A stretch of 48,502 nucleotides of DNA. Source: Thermoleophilia bacterium. GTDB lineage: Bacteria; Actinomycetota; Thermoleophilia; Miltoncostaeales; Miltoncostaeaceae. A program made the translations under genes and the position numbers. The notes below the pieces were generated by a model. It worked only from the letters and a program-made list of their open reading frames with translations, was not told the DNA's origin and searched no databases. Location: contig JAGQUM010000010.1 in assembly GCA_020438485.1 (NCBI GenBank), forward strand, positions 1 through 48,502. The letters run 5' to 3'. Below are positions 39,297 through 48,414 of this stretch, piece by piece. The stretch's first letter is position 1. The number at the start of each line of letters is the position of its first letter.

Positions 39297-39462
39297 AAGG
39301 AAGCTCGGGGGGCGGGACGGTTCCCGCCGACGAGCAGCCCTTCACCCGAGGACCACGACGTCGCAAGGAGGCAGGCGACCTGGCTCGTCCCCCGGGCGGG
39401 GGCATCACAGTTGCGGGACAGCGCCGGGATCGCACCGGCTTCGCTGACGCTCCTCACTCACC
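39297..39462 (-). ncRNA. Cobalamin (B12) riboswitch
   Basis: The minus strand carries the conserved core: GAAGCCGGTGCGATCCCGGC (about 39443-39424), then GCTGTCCCGCAACTGTGA (the B12 box with CCCGCNACTGTGA, about 39422-39405), a GC-rich hairpin, then AGCCAGGTCGCCTGCC. This is the standard cobalamin aptamer order. It stands directly before the B12 uptake/salvage operon, so adenosylcobalamin (or a related corrinoid) should repress btuF-C-D-cobU-T-S. The outer limits are approximate. Confidence 0.92.
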
Positions 39463-42445: not shown

Positions 42446-42507
42446 TGTGACTGTGCTACTTCGTGGGGTACCGCCCGATCAGGGCGCAGGAACGACCAGG
42501 GTTGACC

Positions 42508-45072
42508 GTGCTCAAACAGTTGGCGAGTGCTCGCGGCGGGGGGCGACCCCGCCTGTCCGGCGTCCACGCCGTGTGGGCGCTCAACGCGGCCATCGCGCTC
42601 GCGTGCGGGCTGCTGCTGGCCGGGCCCGTCCGCCACTACGCGCCGGTCGTCCCCGACACCATCCCGTGGTGGGGCATCGCGGCGTTCATCGCGATCACCG
42701 AGCGCTGGCCCGTTCACCTGGAGTTCCGGCGCAGCGCCCACTCCTTCTCGCTGACCGACATCCCCGTCACGCTGGCGCTGCTGTTCCTCAGCGGCGTCGA
42801 GGGGCCTCTGGCCGTGGCCCTCGGCGGCGGCGTCGCGCTGGCGCTGCGCCGGCTGCCGCCCCTCAAGTTCGTGTTCAACCTGGCGCAGTTCACGTGCGCG
42901 GCGGCCGTCGGCTACGTCGTGATGCACATGATCGCGGGCCACGAACCCGGTTTCGGGCCCACCGTGTGGGTCGCGACGCTGCTCGCGCTGCAGATCGGCG
43001 GCGTGTTCACCATCGTCGCCCTGTCCTGCGCGATGTGGCTGGTGGAGGGGTCGCTCAGCCGCGACGAGATCCGCCAGATGTTCACGATGGACGCCGCGGT
43101 GACGGCCACGAACACCAGCCTCGCGCTGGTGCTGGCGGTCATCATCGTGGTCGAGCCCGCCGCGGCCCCGATCCTGTTGATCCCCATCGTCATCGCGTTC
43201 GTGGCGTATCGCCAGTACGTCGCGGAGCGGCAGCGGCACGAGAAGCTGCAGTTCCTGTACGAGGCCAACCGCGGCCTGGCGGACTCGCGCGACGAGGTCG
43301 CCCACGCCCTCGTGGGGCTCCTGCGCCGGGCGCTCGAGGCGTATCGCTCCGAGCAGGCCGAGGTGCTGCTGTTCTCGGCGGAGGACGACAACCCGCCGCT
43401 TCGCACCAGCCTCGGGGCGGGTGACGAGGAGCACATGGTGCCCGCCGATCCGGCGGGCGCGCAGGCACTGCGCGACCTGCTGGCCGAGCACGGCCGCCCG
43501 CTGATCCTCGAGGAGCCCTTCCCCCCGTCGGTGCGCGCATACCTGACCCAGCGCGGCATCCGTCACGCCATGGTCGCCGAACTGCGGGGCGAGCAGCGCC
43601 AGGTGGGGCTGCTCGTGCTGGCCAACCGCACCGGGTTCGCCCGCCGGTTCACCGACGACGACGTCGCGCTGTTCGAGACGCTGGCCGGCAACGCCAGCGC
43701 CGCGCTGCAGTACGACCGGCTCGAGCAGGCCGTGTCGGATCTGCGCGACCTGCAGGAGAGGCTTCACCATCAGGCCTACCACGACCCGCTGACGGGCCTG
43801 GCGAACCGCGCGCTGTTCCACCAGCACGTCGAGCGGGCCGTGGCCACGGGCAGGGGCACCGGCGTGCTGTTCATCGACCTCGATGACTTCAAGGCCGTCA
43901 ACGACACGCTGGGGCATGCCGTCGGCGACCGGCTGCTGCGCGCCGCGGCCCGTCGCCTGGCCGGGTGCGTGCGGGGTGACGACGTGGTGGCGCGGCTGGG
44001 CGGCGACGAGTTCGCCGTGCTGTGCATGGACGACCACGACGTGGAGGCCATCGGCGTGGGGATCGCCGAGCGTGTGTTGGAGGCGTTCCAGGTGCCCCTC
44101 GCGGTCGCCGCCCACGTGCTGCCGGTGGCGCTCAGCATCGGCATCGCCACCAACCGTCACAGCGACGGGGGCGTGGATCCCCTGCTGCGCGACGCCGACC
44201 TCGCGATGTACCAGGCCAAGGAGTCGGGCAAGGGGCGGTTCGCCCTGTTCAACCCGGAGATGCGCGAGGCGCTCCTGGGCCGGATGGGCCTGCGAGCCGA
44301 ACTGGAGGGGGCCATCGCGAACGACGCGCTGACGGTGCACTTCCAGCCCATCTTCGACATGGAGACCGGGCAAACCGTGGCCGCCGAGGCCCTGGTGCGC
44401 TGGGACCACCCCACCCGCGGCCTGCTGGCGCCGCCGAGCTTCATCCCCCTGGCCGAGGAGACCGGCCTCATCGTGCCGCTGGGCCGGCGCGTGCTGGAGC
44501 ACTCGTGCCGCGAGGGCAGCGCGTGGGCGGATGCCGGCGTGCCCATCGACGTGCACGTGAACCTGTCGGCGCGGGAACTGGAGGACGAGGCCCTCGCCGA
44601 CACCGTCGCCGAGGTGCTGAACGAGACGGACCTGGCGCCCGCGCGGCTCGTCCTGGAGATCACCGAGAGCCTGCTGATGCGCGATCCCGAGCGAGGGGTC
44701 ACGACGCTGGCCGACCTCCGGGCCCTGGGTGTGCGTCTGGCGCTGGACGATTTCGGCACCGGGTACTCGTCTTTGAGCTACCTGCGGACACTTCCCCTGG
44801 ACGTGCTGAAGATCGCGAAGGAGTTCGTGGTGGGCATCGCGGACAACCCCGAGGACGCGGCGTTCGTGCGGCTCATCGTCGACCTGGCGGACACCATCGG
44901 CCTGACGGTGGTGGCCGAGGGCGTCGAGACCGACACGCAGCTGCGGACCCTGCAGGAGCTGCGGTGCGACCAGGGGCAGGGCTTCCTCTACGCCGTGCCG
45001 GTGCCGGTCAGCGAGTGGGACACGCAGGGCGGCCGCAGGGCCCTGCGCGAGCGCTCCTTCAGCGATTTGTAA
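42508..45072 (+). CDS. Membrane GGDEF-EAL protein with altered EAL active site
   Basis: This c-di-GMP-turnover protein of about 854 residues has about eight N-terminal membrane segments (residues 20-245), a GAF-like region (about 265-405), a GGDEF domain with RLGGDEFAVL and an intact inhibitory RxxD (RGDD, five residues before GGDEF), and an EAL domain. AAEALVRW, NLSARELE, LEITESLLM, ALDDFGTGYSSL and AEGVETDT are present, but the KID motif reads LKIAKEFV. That Asp contributes to metal-ion catalysis in studied EAL enzymes, so phosphodiesterase activity is doubtful and net cyclase activity likely. GTG 42508 with AGGG upstream is preferred; GTG 42463 would add 15 residues. The gene ends 57 bp before a c-di-GMP riboswitch. 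Confidence 0.88.
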   Translation: MLKQLASARGGGRPRLSGVHAVWALNAAIALACGLLLAGPVRHYAPVVPDTIPWWGIAAFIAITERWPVHLEFRRSAHSFSLTDIPVTLALLFLSGVEGPLAVALGGGVALALRRLPPLKFVFNLAQFTCAAAVGYVVMHMIAGHEPGFGPTVWVATLLALQIGGVFTIVALSCAMWLVEGSLSRDEIRQMFTMDAAVTATNTSLALVLAVIIVVEPAAAPILLIPIVIAFVAYRQYVAERQRHEKLQFLYEANRGLADSRDEVAHALVGLLRRALEAYRSEQAEVLLFSAEDDNPPLRTSLGAGDEEHMVPADPAGAQALRDLLAEHGRPLILEEPFPPSVRAYLTQRGIRHAMVAELRGEQRQVGLLVLANRTGFARRFTDDDVALFETLAGNASAALQYDRLEQAVSDLRDLQERLHHQAYHDPLTGLANRALFHQHVERAVATGRGTGVLFIDLDDFKAVNDTLGHAVGDRLLRAAARRLAGCVRGDDVVARLGGDEFAVLCMDDHDVEAIGVGIAERVLEAFQVPLAVAAHVLPVALSIGIATNRHSDGGVDPLLRDADLAMYQAKESGKGRFALFNPEMREALLGRMGLRAELEGAIANDALTVHFQPIFDMETGQTVAAEALVRWDHPTRGLLAPPSFIPLAEETGLIVPLGRRVLEHSCREGSAWADAGVPIDVHVNLSARELEDEALADTVAEVLNETDLAPARLVLEITESLLMRDPERGVTTLADLRALGVRLALDDFGTGYSSLSYLRTLPLDVLKIAKEFVVGIADNPEDAAFVRLIVDLADTIGLTVVAEGVETDTQLRTLQELRCDQGQGFLYAVPVPVSEWDTQGGRRALRERSFSDL

Positions 45073-45235: not shown

Positions 45236-45248
45236 CTTGGGAGCCTGT

Positions 45249-46790
45249 GTGCCTGGAATCCGCCCCCGTCGTTCCCCCGTCGTCGCCGCCGCGCTCGCCT
45301 GCACCGGGGCGCTGGCCGCGTCACCGGCGCTCGCCGCACCCTCCTCAACCGGCGCGGGCGTCGAGACGATCGTCCAGATGAATCCCGGCACCACGCCCGC
45401 GCAGGGTCGCGCGGTCGTCGCGCGCCACGGCGGGAGCGTGATCGGCGAGGTCCCGATCATCCACGGCCTCGTCGCCCGCGTCCCGTCCCCCCGGCTGGCC
45501 GGGCTGCGCCGCGAGGCCGCGATCCGGGCCGCCACCCGCAACGGCCGCGTGGCCGCCACGGCGGGGGTGAGCACCAGGAACCTCCGGACGGCCTACCCTC
45601 TGACCGTGGACGCGCCGGTCGCGTGGAGCCCCGCCTGGGGCTCCGTCACGGGCAGGGGTGTCGGCGTGGCGGTGATCGACACCGGCGTCGACGGCGGCAT
45701 CGTCGACTTCCAGCGCTCGTCCTGGGATCGCCAGTCCCGGGTCGTGGCCGCCGTGCGGACCAACCCCAACGCCACGACCGTCGACGACGAGTACGGCCAC
45801 GGCACGCACGTCGCCGGGATCATCGCCGGCAACGGCAACAACCGCACCGACGCGTTCGCGGGCCGCTACGTCGGCATCGCCCCCAGGGCCAACCTGGTCT
45901 CGGTGAAGGTGTCCGACGATCAGGGGATCGCGACAGTGCTCGACGTGATCTACGGGCTGCAGTTCGCCGTGGACATGAAGGACAGGTACAACATCCGGGT
46001 CATCAACATGTCGCTCACGTCGACCGTGGCGGGGCCGGCGTCGACCGACCCGCTGAACGCGGCGACCGAGGAGGCCTGGAACCGCGGCATCGTCGTGGTC
46101 GCCGCGGCCGGGAACAGGGGTTCGGGCGACGGCGCCGTCGACTACGCCCCCGGAAACGACCCGTTCGTCATCACGGTGGGCGCGACGGACGACCAGGACA
46201 CGAGCACCCGCAGCGACGACACCGTCGCCTCGTGGTCCAGCGCGGGGACGACGCAGGAAGGGGTGGCGAAGCCCGAGATCTACGCGCCGGGGGCGCACAT
46301 GGTCTCGACGCTCGCCCCGGGCAGCGACTTCACCCGCACGTGCCCGACGTGCGTCGTCGACGACCAGTACATCCGTGCGGGCGGCACGTCCATGTCGGCG
46401 CCGGTGGTCTCGGGCATCGTCGCGCTGATGCTCGAGCGGCGCCCGTGGCTGACGCCGAACCAGGTGAAGGGCACGCTGATCGCCACGTCCGAGCGGGTGG
46501 CGGACGACGCGGTTCCCGAGGCCGACGCGGCCCGGGCCGTCTACGCGTCCGGCGTCTACTCGTCCAATCGGGAGCTGGCGCCGAACGCGTTGATCGACCC
46601 CGCCACCGGAGGTGTCGATCCCGCCCGCTCATCGTGGAGCCGGTCCTCGTGGAGCAGCGCGCCCGACCCGAACGCCGGCTGGTCCCGGTCGTCGTGGAGC
46701 TGTGAGTGCTCGCTGAACCCCGACGGCAGCGTCGACCCCACGTGGTCGAGCTGGAGCCGGTCCTCCTGGTCCACGTCGTGGTCGAAGTAG
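45249..46790 (+). CDS. Secreted S8 (subtilisin-like) protease with Trp-Ser repeat tail, copy 1
   Basis: This 513-residue exported protease has a signal peptide (RRSPVVAAALACTGALAASP then ALAA), a short inhibitor-like propeptide (about residues 37-110), and a subtilisin domain with catalytic Asp144 (VAVIDTGVDG), His184 (EYGHGTHVAGIIAGNG) and Ser381 (GGTSMSAPVVSG). The last 58 residues are a repeat tail: WSRSSWSS, WSRSSWSCECSL and TWSSWSRSSWSTSWSK, with a CxCSL-x-P-DGSVDP block between. GTG 45249 has GGGAG 5 nt upstream; a TTG at 45237 is an unlikely alternative. It follows the c-di-GMP riboswitch and lies 28 bp before its paralog, so both are probably cotranscribed. Substrates are unknown. Confidence 0.9.
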   Translation: MPGIRPRRSPVVAAALACTGALAASPALAAPSSTGAGVETIVQMNPGTTPAQGRAVVARHGGSVIGEVPIIHGLVARVPSPRLAGLRREAAIRAATRNGRVAATAGVSTRNLRTAYPLTVDAPVAWSPAWGSVTGRGVGVAVIDTGVDGGIVDFQRSSWDRQSRVVAAVRTNPNATTVDDEYGHGTHVAGIIAGNGNNRTDAFAGRYVGIAPRANLVSVKVSDDQGIATVLDVIYGLQFAVDMKDRYNIRVINMSLTSTVAGPASTDPLNAATEEAWNRGIVVVAAAGNRGSGDGAVDYAPGNDPFVITVGATDDQDTSTRSDDTVASWSSAGTTQEGVAKPEIYAPGAHMVSTLAPGSDFTRTCPTCVVDDQYIRAGGTSMSAPVVSGIVALMLERRPWLTPNQVKGTLIATSERVADDAVPEADAARAVYASGVYSSNRELAPNALIDPATGGVDPARSSWSRSSWSSAPDPNAGWSRSSWSCECSLNPDGSVDPTWSSWSRSSWSTSWSK

Positions 46791-46818
46791 CCCGCGGCGC
46801 CACGGGAACGGGCCCCCG

Positions 46819-48414
46819 ATGACCCCTCGCCGCCGCGCGACCCTGTCCGTCGCCGCCGCCGTGGGCGCTCTCGCCGCCGCCACCGCGCCCGGCACGGCCG
46901 CCGCGGCCACCGAGTCGATCGTCCTCATGGCGCCCGGCGTCTCGCCCGTCGCCGCGCGGCACGTCATCGCCGCCTCGGGCGGCACCATCACCCGGCGCGT
47001 GCCCATGATCAACGCGTACGGCGTGCGCGCGTCGGCCGCCGCCACCGCCGGCCTCGCCCGCGCGGGCGGCGTGCGGAGCGTGACGCCGAACGTCGCGTGG
47101 CGGCCCGCCGGCGCCACGACCAGGCCCGCGCCGGCATCCGGGACGGCCGGCATTGCGGCGAAGTCCGCGCCCGCCCCCAGCCCGACGGCGACCTCGCCGC
47201 TGGTCACGTCGTTCAACGAGTCGCTCTCGACGCCCGCCGCGTGGACCTCGGCGTACAGGGCCACCGGCAAGGGGGTGGGTGTCGCGGTCATCGACACCGG
47301 CGTCGCCGGAGGCGTCCCCGATTTCCGCACCTCGCGCACGGACCCCACGTCGCGCGTCGTCGCGTCGGTCGTGACGAACCCGCATGCCACCACGGCCACC
47401 GACGCCTACGGTCACGGCACCCACGTCGCGGGTCTCATCGCCGGCAACGGCAGCGCCCGCCCATTCGGGGATCCGCTCGCCGGGAGGTATTCCGGCACGG
47501 CGCCCGAGGCCCAGATCGTCTCGGTCAAGGCCTCCGACGACCATGGCAACGCCACGCTGCTCGACGTCATCTACGGCCTTCAGTTCGTCGTTGACAACAG
47601 GGCCGCGTACAACATCCGCGTCGTCAACCTCAGCCTCGAGTCGTCCGCTCCACAGCCGTACCGCGTGGACCCGCTCGACGCGGCGGTGGAGGCCGCGTGG
47701 CGCAGGGGCATCGTGGTCGTCGCCGCCGCCGGCAACCGCGGGACGGCGACCGACGCCGTCATGTACGCCCCGGGCAACGACCCCTACGTGCTGAGCGTGG
47801 GCGCCGTCGACGACAGGGGTACCAAGTCCCCGAGCGATGACACGCTGGCCACGTGGTCCAGCCGCGGCGTCACGCAGGACGGGGTGAGAAAGCCGGAGGT
47901 GCTGGCGCCCGGTGCGCGGATGGTGAGCGTGCTCGCCCCCGGCAGTGACTTCGCGACGCTGTGCCCGTCGTGCGTGGTCTCGGGCCAGTACATCCGCATC
48001 GGCGGCACGTCGATGTCGGCGGCCGTCGCGTCCGGCGTCGTGGCCGACATCCTCCAGGCGCACCCCACGTGGACTCCCGACCAGGTGAAGGCCGCGATCG
48101 TGGGGACGACCCGGACCGTGGCGGGGACCGGACCCGAGATCTCCGCGACCGCAGCGATCAAGGCCGACCCCGACAAGCTGCCGAGGGTGAACGTGGGCCT
48201 GACCGCGAGCACGCTGCTGGACGCGTCCGGTTCCATCGACTGGACCAGGGCGTCGTGGAGCAGGGCGTCGTGGAGCAGGGCCGCCGACCCGCTGCGGGCG
48301 TCGTGGAGCCGGGCCTCCTGGAGCTGCGCGTGCTCGCTCGACGCGTCCGGAGCGGTGGACCCCGCCCGCGCCTCGTGGAGCCGGGCGTCGTGGAGCGCCG
48401 CCTGGGACAAGTAG
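46819..48414 (+). CDS. Secreted S8 (subtilisin-like) protease with Trp-Ser repeat tail, copy 2
   Basis: This 531-residue paralog has the same order as copy 1: a signal peptide (RRRATLSVAAAVGALAAATA then PGTAAAA), a propeptide and Pro/Ala-rich linker (PAPASGTAGIAAKSAPAPSP), and a subtilisin domain with Asp159 (VAVIDTGVAG), His199 (AYGHGTHVAGLIAGNG) and Ser398 (GGTSMSAAVASG). The tail (about residues 473-531) is RASWSRASWSRAAD, LRASWSRASWSCACSL and ARASWSRASWSAAWDK. It differs from copy 1 by R-A for R-S and by a longer propeptide linker. It is probably expressed from the same riboswitch-controlled transcript. A GC hairpin follows its stop. Confidence 0.9.
   Translation: MTPRRRATLSVAAAVGALAAATAPGTAAAATESIVLMAPGVSPVAARHVIAASGGTITRRVPMINAYGVRASAAATAGLARAGGVRSVTPNVAWRPAGATTRPAPASGTAGIAAKSAPAPSPTATSPLVTSFNESLSTPAAWTSAYRATGKGVGVAVIDTGVAGGVPDFRTSRTDPTSRVVASVVTNPHATTATDAYGHGTHVAGLIAGNGSARPFGDPLAGRYSGTAPEAQIVSVKASDDHGNATLLDVIYGLQFVVDNRAAYNIRVVNLSLESSAPQPYRVDPLDAAVEAAWRRGIVVVAAAGNRGTATDAVMYAPGNDPYVLSVGAVDDRGTKSPSDDTLATWSSRGVTQDGVRKPEVLAPGARMVSVLAPGSDFATLCPSCVVSGQYIRIGGTSMSAAVASGVVADILQAHPTWTPDQVKAAIVGTTRTVAGTGPEISATAAIKADPDKLPRVNVGLTASTLLDASGSIDWTRASWSRASWSRAADPLRASWSRASWSCACSLDASGAVDPARASWSRASWSAAWDK

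Follow-up and report, generated by a model that had tools for sequence, protein, structure and literature searches.

Two adjacent S8 subtilase genes at the end of a contig from a Thermoleophilia bacterium encode proteins that finish in tryptophan-rich C-terminal tails, raising the question of what such a tail is, how widely it occurs, and under which control the proteases that carry it are made. The window, i.e., the whole stretch of 48,502 nucleotides that was analysed, is a complete contig (G000:C47), one of the 91 that make up a genome of 2.58 Mb. Its last 6 kb carries, all on the + strand, a GGDEF-EAL gene, a c-di-GMP-I riboswitch, subtilase 1 and subtilase 2. The first gene (42463–45072, + strand) encodes a protein with a membrane N-terminus followed by GAF, GGDEF and EAL domains (Pfam E-values of 6.3e-8 for GAF_2, 1.9e-40 for GGDEF and 5.2e-72 for EAL), whose predicted role is the synthesis or breakdown of c-di-GMP and whose translation retains intact GGDEF and EAL motifs as well as the RxxD I-site. 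In the leader of subtilase 1 lies a predicted c-di-GMP-I riboswitch aptamer (RF01051; 45137–45212, + strand), scoring 52.0 bits in cmscan (E-value of 2.2e-7, with a gathering cut-off of 35 bits). It was overlooked in the initial annotation, as was the GGDEF-EAL gene ahead of it, and is the only RF01051 match found in this genome.

Subtilase 1 (45237–46790, + strand) and subtilase 2 (46819–48414, + strand) are separated by 28 bp and share the same architecture, i.e., an N-terminus that looks like a signal peptide, a propeptide, a catalytic domain (PF00082, E-values of 2.7e-53 and 6.1e-49, respectively) and the Trp-rich tail (W-tail). The listed start of subtilase 1 is a TTG, with a GTG at 45249, preceded by GGGAG, as a possible alternative. 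The two proteins are 54–55% identical, and subtilase 2 branches outside the pair formed by subtilase 1 and its counterpart in a congener. An alignment showed the S8 active site to be complete in both, with D148, H188, S385 and the oxyanion N293 invariant (residues listed for subtilase 1). Among the 10 S8 matches of this genome, the tail was found only on the pair of this operon, as far as full C-termini were read. The nearest NCBIfam model, that of the type VII mycosins (TIGR03921), was considered and rejected, since the pair scored 139.7 and 137.7 bits against a cut-off of 278.75. PF00082 and TIGR03921 subtilases resemble the window pair in catalytic domain, triad and export with a propeptide, but no model covers the C-terminal Trp array.

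Two further features of the window were noted in passing. A cobalamin riboswitch (39379–39439, – strand; 35.6 bits) appears ordinary, with an apparent vitamin B12 uptake ABC transporter and cobT behind it on the – strand, as judged from their translations. At the contig end (48461–48502, – strand), the apparent 3′ half of a tRNA gene was recognised by eye, which receives no ARAGORN call because the gene is cut.

Tail 1 (46617–46787, + strand; DPARSSWSRSSWSSAPDPNAGWSRSSWSCECSLNPDGSVDPTWSSWSRSSWSTSWSK) comprises 57 residues with 8 Trp, and tail 2 (48238–48411, + strand; DWTRASWSRASWSRAADPLRASWSRASWSCACSLDASGAVDPARASWSRASWSAAWDK) comprises 58 residues with 7 Trp. The initial annotation had described both as three WSR[SA]SWS blocks with a C-x-C-S-L segment and a W-[SD]-K end, and all of these elements are indeed present. 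The equal block spacing it had reported holds between blocks 2 and 3 (Trp–Trp distance of 19 in both tails) but not between blocks 1 and 2 (10 in tail 1 vs. 11 in tail 2). When both tails were aligned with their homologs, a five-member subgroup consisting of the window pair, the protein of the congener G001 and two proteins of genome G160 was found to share six Trp, one Cys, one Ala, an Asp-Pro ahead of the last block and two Ser following Trp as fully conserved columns, while Ser, Thr and Ala interchange elsewhere. The Cys pair (C-E-C at 46701–46709 in tail 1 and C-A-C at 48325–48333 in tail 2, both on the + strand) has an invariant first Cys within this subgroup; the second is always present and moves by one residue, giving either CxC or CxxC (CGTC and CAAC in G160). 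Four of the five members (the window pair at 45237–48414, L011 and L035) have a separate CPxC motif just ahead of the active-site Ser. The remaining one, G160b, lacks CPxC yet retains the tail Cys pair, indicating that the two Cys pairs are independent.

Taken singly, each window tail is weak evidence for a periodic pattern, since 4.5% (tail 1) and 1.7% (tail 2) of shuffled sequences contained at least three Trp pairs at a spacing of 5. Decisive for the pattern is the Trp spacing across the family. In 68 distinct tails of related subtilases, 794 Trp–Trp pairs lie at a distance of 5 (vs. 5 pairs at a distance of 6), 748 at 10 and 672 at 15. No other distance up to 15 accounts for more than 26 pairs. 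Between the tryptophans, the four positions vary freely, with entropies of 2.95–3.51 bits. Of the selection that had been suggested on both Trp and Ser, only the part concerning Trp therefore stands: Ser occupies the position before Trp in 38% of cases over the 68 tails, and spacers devoid of Ser (KFK, GGQ, ARR) occur in related tails. Likewise, the WSRxSWS block does not persist as a unit, the real unit being a Trp period of five (or six) residues. The window tails are a shortened, interrupted and sparse form of a much wider Trp-repeat feature.

At the DNA level, tail 1 and the tail of the congener differ by 15 synonymous and 15 replacement codon changes with the six core Trp retained, and the Ser codons in the window tails are mixed, showing that these tails are not recent DNA copies. 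The many synonymous differences further indicate that their likeness is maintained at the protein level. With Tandem Repeats Finder (TRF), tail 1 gave no array and tail 2 nothing but short 15-base ones.

Arrays in the wider class range from 2 to about 37 Trp pairs, with period-5 units as different as WSRSS, WADAS, WTKFK, WTKYA, WTSAN, WSATD, WGSVN, WDGRV, WSGNT, WAARQ, WTGAR and WTGGQ, and with a composition around Trp of the type [ASVT]-[SAND]-W-[STAG]-x. Period-6 tails, with units such as VWGDAA, NNIVWG, ALWSDA, AASWSS and NAATWN, occur in Acidobacteriota, Armatimonadota, some Gammaproteobacteria MAGs (metagenome-assembled genomes) and two members of the class to which the window belongs. 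The suggestion that similar tails may exist in other actinobacterial subtilases was borne out in relatives, but the trait is not exclusively actinobacterial, since records bearing the labels Chloroflexota, Acidobacteriota, Armatimonadota and Gammaproteobacteria contain W-tails too. To our knowledge, tails of the GNSWSGNSW type in actinobacterial S8 records have no function assigned. Neither was a function found for the tail here, and the open-access literature (subscription papers being outside the scope of the search) yielded no paper on such Trp tails or on a c-di-GMP riboswitch before a subtilase.

In 149 genomes of the class, the DNA was scanned for six TGG codons spaced 15 bases apart, and 30 loci were read by eye. 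Thirteen contained the array in frame within a recognisable exported protein, which was an S8 subtilase in 12; the remaining loci were out-of-frame or DNA-repeat artefacts, together with one chance-looking match in a membrane protein. The thirteenth locus (L124, G078:C7, at about 974–1141 in its contig) carries its period-5 array (WSPSE/WSASQ) amid a long protein for which Pfam gave neither an S8 nor any other match, and which is likely not a subtilase and possibly an example of the repeat being used elsewhere. As a separate observation, an Anaerolineae MAG (L047) holds four tandem S8 genes, three of which end in WGSVN tails and the fourth of which is incomplete at the sequence end; one of these genes has a MAM-like N-terminal region. 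A scan of genome contigs with a single protein as query returned no match, and a scan with a profile returned matches mostly in other phyla, since its patterns correspond to catalytic motifs.

The distribution of the tails was set against a maximum-likelihood tree built from 145 S8 domains (a quick build with SH-aLRT support and no bootstrap). The sampled sequences are those similar to the window or to five catalytic domains, and they do not amount to an exhaustive census. All 39 period-5 (W5) and all 24 period-6 (W6) proteins fell into one clade of 71 with an SH-aLRT support of 99, outside of which were 74 untailed domains, including the placed S8 paralogues of the same genomes. The eight clade members scored as untailed are mostly truncated or carry a degenerate tail or another repeat (L053, L075). 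The tail label changes 10 times along the tree, vs. 55 times with shuffled labels. Both window subtilases have a C-terminal Trp period and are placed within this clade. The two genes encode subtilases with complete active sites, predicted to be exported, that belong to a single S8 clade marked by a C-terminal Trp-repeat array (usually W-x-x-x-x, sometimes of period 6). Within the clade the two periods are intermixed: the period-5 group of family f2 has period-6 proteins around it, and two proteins of period 6 are found among period-5 ones, so that the Trp repeat appears to be older than its period.

Domain libraries gave little to assign the tail to. Compared with Pfam, NCBIfam and the PDB, the window tails matched nothing beyond chance. 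The only Pfam hit for tail 1, with the pentapeptide models included, was DUF5122 at an E-value of 0.14, and when the tail profile and three regular tails were searched against the PDB, all hits remained at chance level (best E-values of 0.014–0.8, with QnrB1 and IcmE among the hits). The tail is neither absent from all homologs nor matched to a characterised domain, the two outcomes for which it had been checked. Among 41 tails, Pentapeptide_4 matched six, Pentapeptide_2 matched four (1e-20 at best; a Pentapeptide_2 match in a separate scan had 3e-14) and Hexapep matched one. The latter match (1.5e-16) apparently corresponds to a same-clade S8 subtilase from a Blastocatellia MAG (L075) with a Trp-less IGDGVL hexapeptide-repeat tail. 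Together, these matches favour a solenoid-like repeat. The occurrence of periods 5 and 6 within one clade speaks against one rigid fold. The hexapeptide repeats of left-handed beta-helices (PF00132) have the period of 6 in common with part of the clade, and the L075 tail stands in the same place as the W-tails; nevertheless, L075 is the only match among the scanned tails, and the scanned W6 tails do not match.

The riboswitch, in turn, recurs beyond the window. The congener has a single RF01051 match as well (L008; 53.3 bits), in the same place between a GGDEF-EAL gene and a subtilase, and in G160 (L011) a c-di-GMP-I riboswitch precedes a W-tailed subtilase. In family f2 of the class, the riboswitch stands directly before a subtilase in 12 of the 13 riboswitch regions read; eight of these subtilases carry a terminal W5 array, the tail is short or degenerate in another two, and contig ends truncate the last two. 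The same arrangement with a period-6 (W6) tail was found in an Armatimonadota MAG (L041). A comparison of riboswitch and subtilase positions over 246 genomes of the phylum yielded, outside the genus of the window and among the matches listed, one more pair sharing a stretch, in G241. There (L253, G241:C277), the riboswitch is followed by a CheY-like receiver gene that overlaps the start of the W-tailed subtilase, in what appears to be a riboswitch–response regulator–protease operon. G160, L041 and G241 thereby extend the arrangement to three additional lineages.

In a sample that was not chosen by riboswitch, one lay near the subtilase in 7 of the 81 proteins with a tail, so that most W-tailed subtilases lack it, and in 1 of the 74 without (p-value of 0.065). 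The single case without a tail is L028, which belongs to the f2 part of the clade and has a degenerate tail. These counts suggest that the link is recurrent but lineage-bound and not a trait of the tail itself. A general association between tail and riboswitch is weak, and we do not infer c-di-GMP control from the tail. Other c-di-GMP-I riboswitches of the class precede prepilin-like or type IV pilus genes, a prepilin peptidase gene, a GGDEF gene, and genes for a glycosyl hydrolase and Ig-domain exported proteins. Since these are mostly surface-function genes, c-di-GMP seems to control surface functions here. The riboswitch and the upstream GGDEF-EAL gene favour a surface or lifestyle role for the window pair. 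In the leader of subtilase 1, no intrinsic terminator or terminator-like site was found, and free folding of this GC-rich RNA was uninformative (z of +2.0).

We tentatively favour, without rating it quite at an even chance, that the window pair are exported subtilases under c-di-GMP control that are kept at the cell envelope or matrix by the Trp-repeat array. The tail would adopt a self-contained short-repeat fold, probably stacked like a beta-solenoid with one Trp per strand or turn, and the Cys pair would pin the shortened version present in the five-member subgroup. The array could then hold the protease on the envelope or extracellular matrix, by way of a glycan or a surface protein; we infer that binding of the tail to the cell wall or carbohydrate, as had been proposed initially, is one such possibility. 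The neighbouring GGDEF-EAL enzyme would make or remove c-di-GMP which, through the riboswitch, would set the amount of protease that reaches the surface, and surface proteins may be cut when cells switch between free and attached life. A comparable arrangement is known from Clostridioides difficile, where the secreted protease PPEP-1 (ZmpI) is under a class I c-di-GMP riboswitch and releases surface adhesins (PMC11477304). An exported protease behind a c-di-GMP-I riboswitch is all that both systems have in common, PPEP-1 being an unrelated metalloprotease and not an S8 enzyme, with known substrates and no Trp tail; by this analogy, it is a precedent for the regulatory logic and not a relative.

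Other readings of the tail have to be weighed against this one. The array might be a self-assembly module, in which either Trp "stickers" set at even intervals between small polar residues or stacked short solenoids cause the protease to oligomerise or gel in the matrix. The even Trp spacing with freely changing spacers, the very variable array length and the presence of either period within one clade would all fit such a module. We nevertheless regard it as rather unlikely, as the short, interrupted window tails with their conserved Cys pair have the look of a compact fold and not of a sticker chain.

The location of the tail at or near the extreme C-terminus of most members, directly after the catalytic domain, could also point to a maturation or export device, i.e., a C-terminal pro-region aiding secretion or folding, or a cleaved sorting signal. 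In several members (L014–L016, L011), however, 30–60 further residues follow the array, and no hydrophobic segment or basic cluster as in known C-terminal sorting signals is present. Moreover, NCBIfam, which has CTERM models, gave no significant match, JDVT-CTERM (E-value of 0.1) falling below the cut-off, so that such a device seems unlikely.

A third reading, that the tail is a plain member of the pentapeptide repeats (an Rfr quadrilateral beta-helix with a central Trp) serving as a spacer or protein-binding rod, draws on the shared period of 5, on the Pentapeptide_2 and Pentapeptide_4 matches above, and on a composition around Trp that resembles the repeat with Leu or Phe swapped for Trp. 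Compared with the known pentapeptide repeats (PF00805, PF01469, PF13599; cf. QnrB and PPE-MPTR), whose models several clade tails reach, the W-tails have Trp instead of Leu/Phe or small residues, some bulky i-2 residues and some arrays of period 6. The pentapeptide core of a central Leu or Phe with a small i-2 residue was not found, the central residue being Trp; the Phe or Tyr two residues before Trp in f2 tails (KFKWT, KYAWT), a residue that the narrow Rfr core would be expected not to accommodate, makes a standard pentapeptide helix doubtful. Period 5 is strict in most relatives but interrupted in the window tails (gaps of 10/11 and 19). The window tails match no pentapeptide model and close relatives in sister groups have period 6, and we regard this reading as quite improbable. 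Finally, neutral low-complexity expansion through DNA slippage, to which the differing array lengths and the DNA repeats in some arrays (e.g., tail 2) might be ascribed, is disfavoured and very improbable, because the spacers turn over completely while Trp and period remain, synonymous codons are mixed, tails are confined to one clade, and the in-frame arrays in exported proteins were S8 in 12 of 13 loci.

Returning to retention of an exported protease by its Trp array, the broader proposition, which we regard as evenly balanced, is that an undescribed Trp-ladder domain of period 5 or 6, with no other constraint on its sequence, defines a multi-phylum clade of secreted subtilases and attaches them either to an extracellular polymer or to one another, with direct control by a c-di-GMP riboswitch in some lineages. 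A known enzyme family would then include a clade-defining repeat domain that has apparently not been described previously. The tail is invisible to current domain libraries, and W-tailed proteins are probably annotated as S8 peptidases only. One fixed residue in five, over many arrays and several phyla, is an unusual sequence constraint, and the complete turnover of spacers together with the switch of period inside one clade offers a test case for aromatic-ladder folding or binding. The riboswitch provides a first handle on when a W-tailed protease is made, and, in parallel to PPEP-1 of C. difficile, the question of which substrates a c-di-GMP-switched subtilase may cut becomes directly testable.
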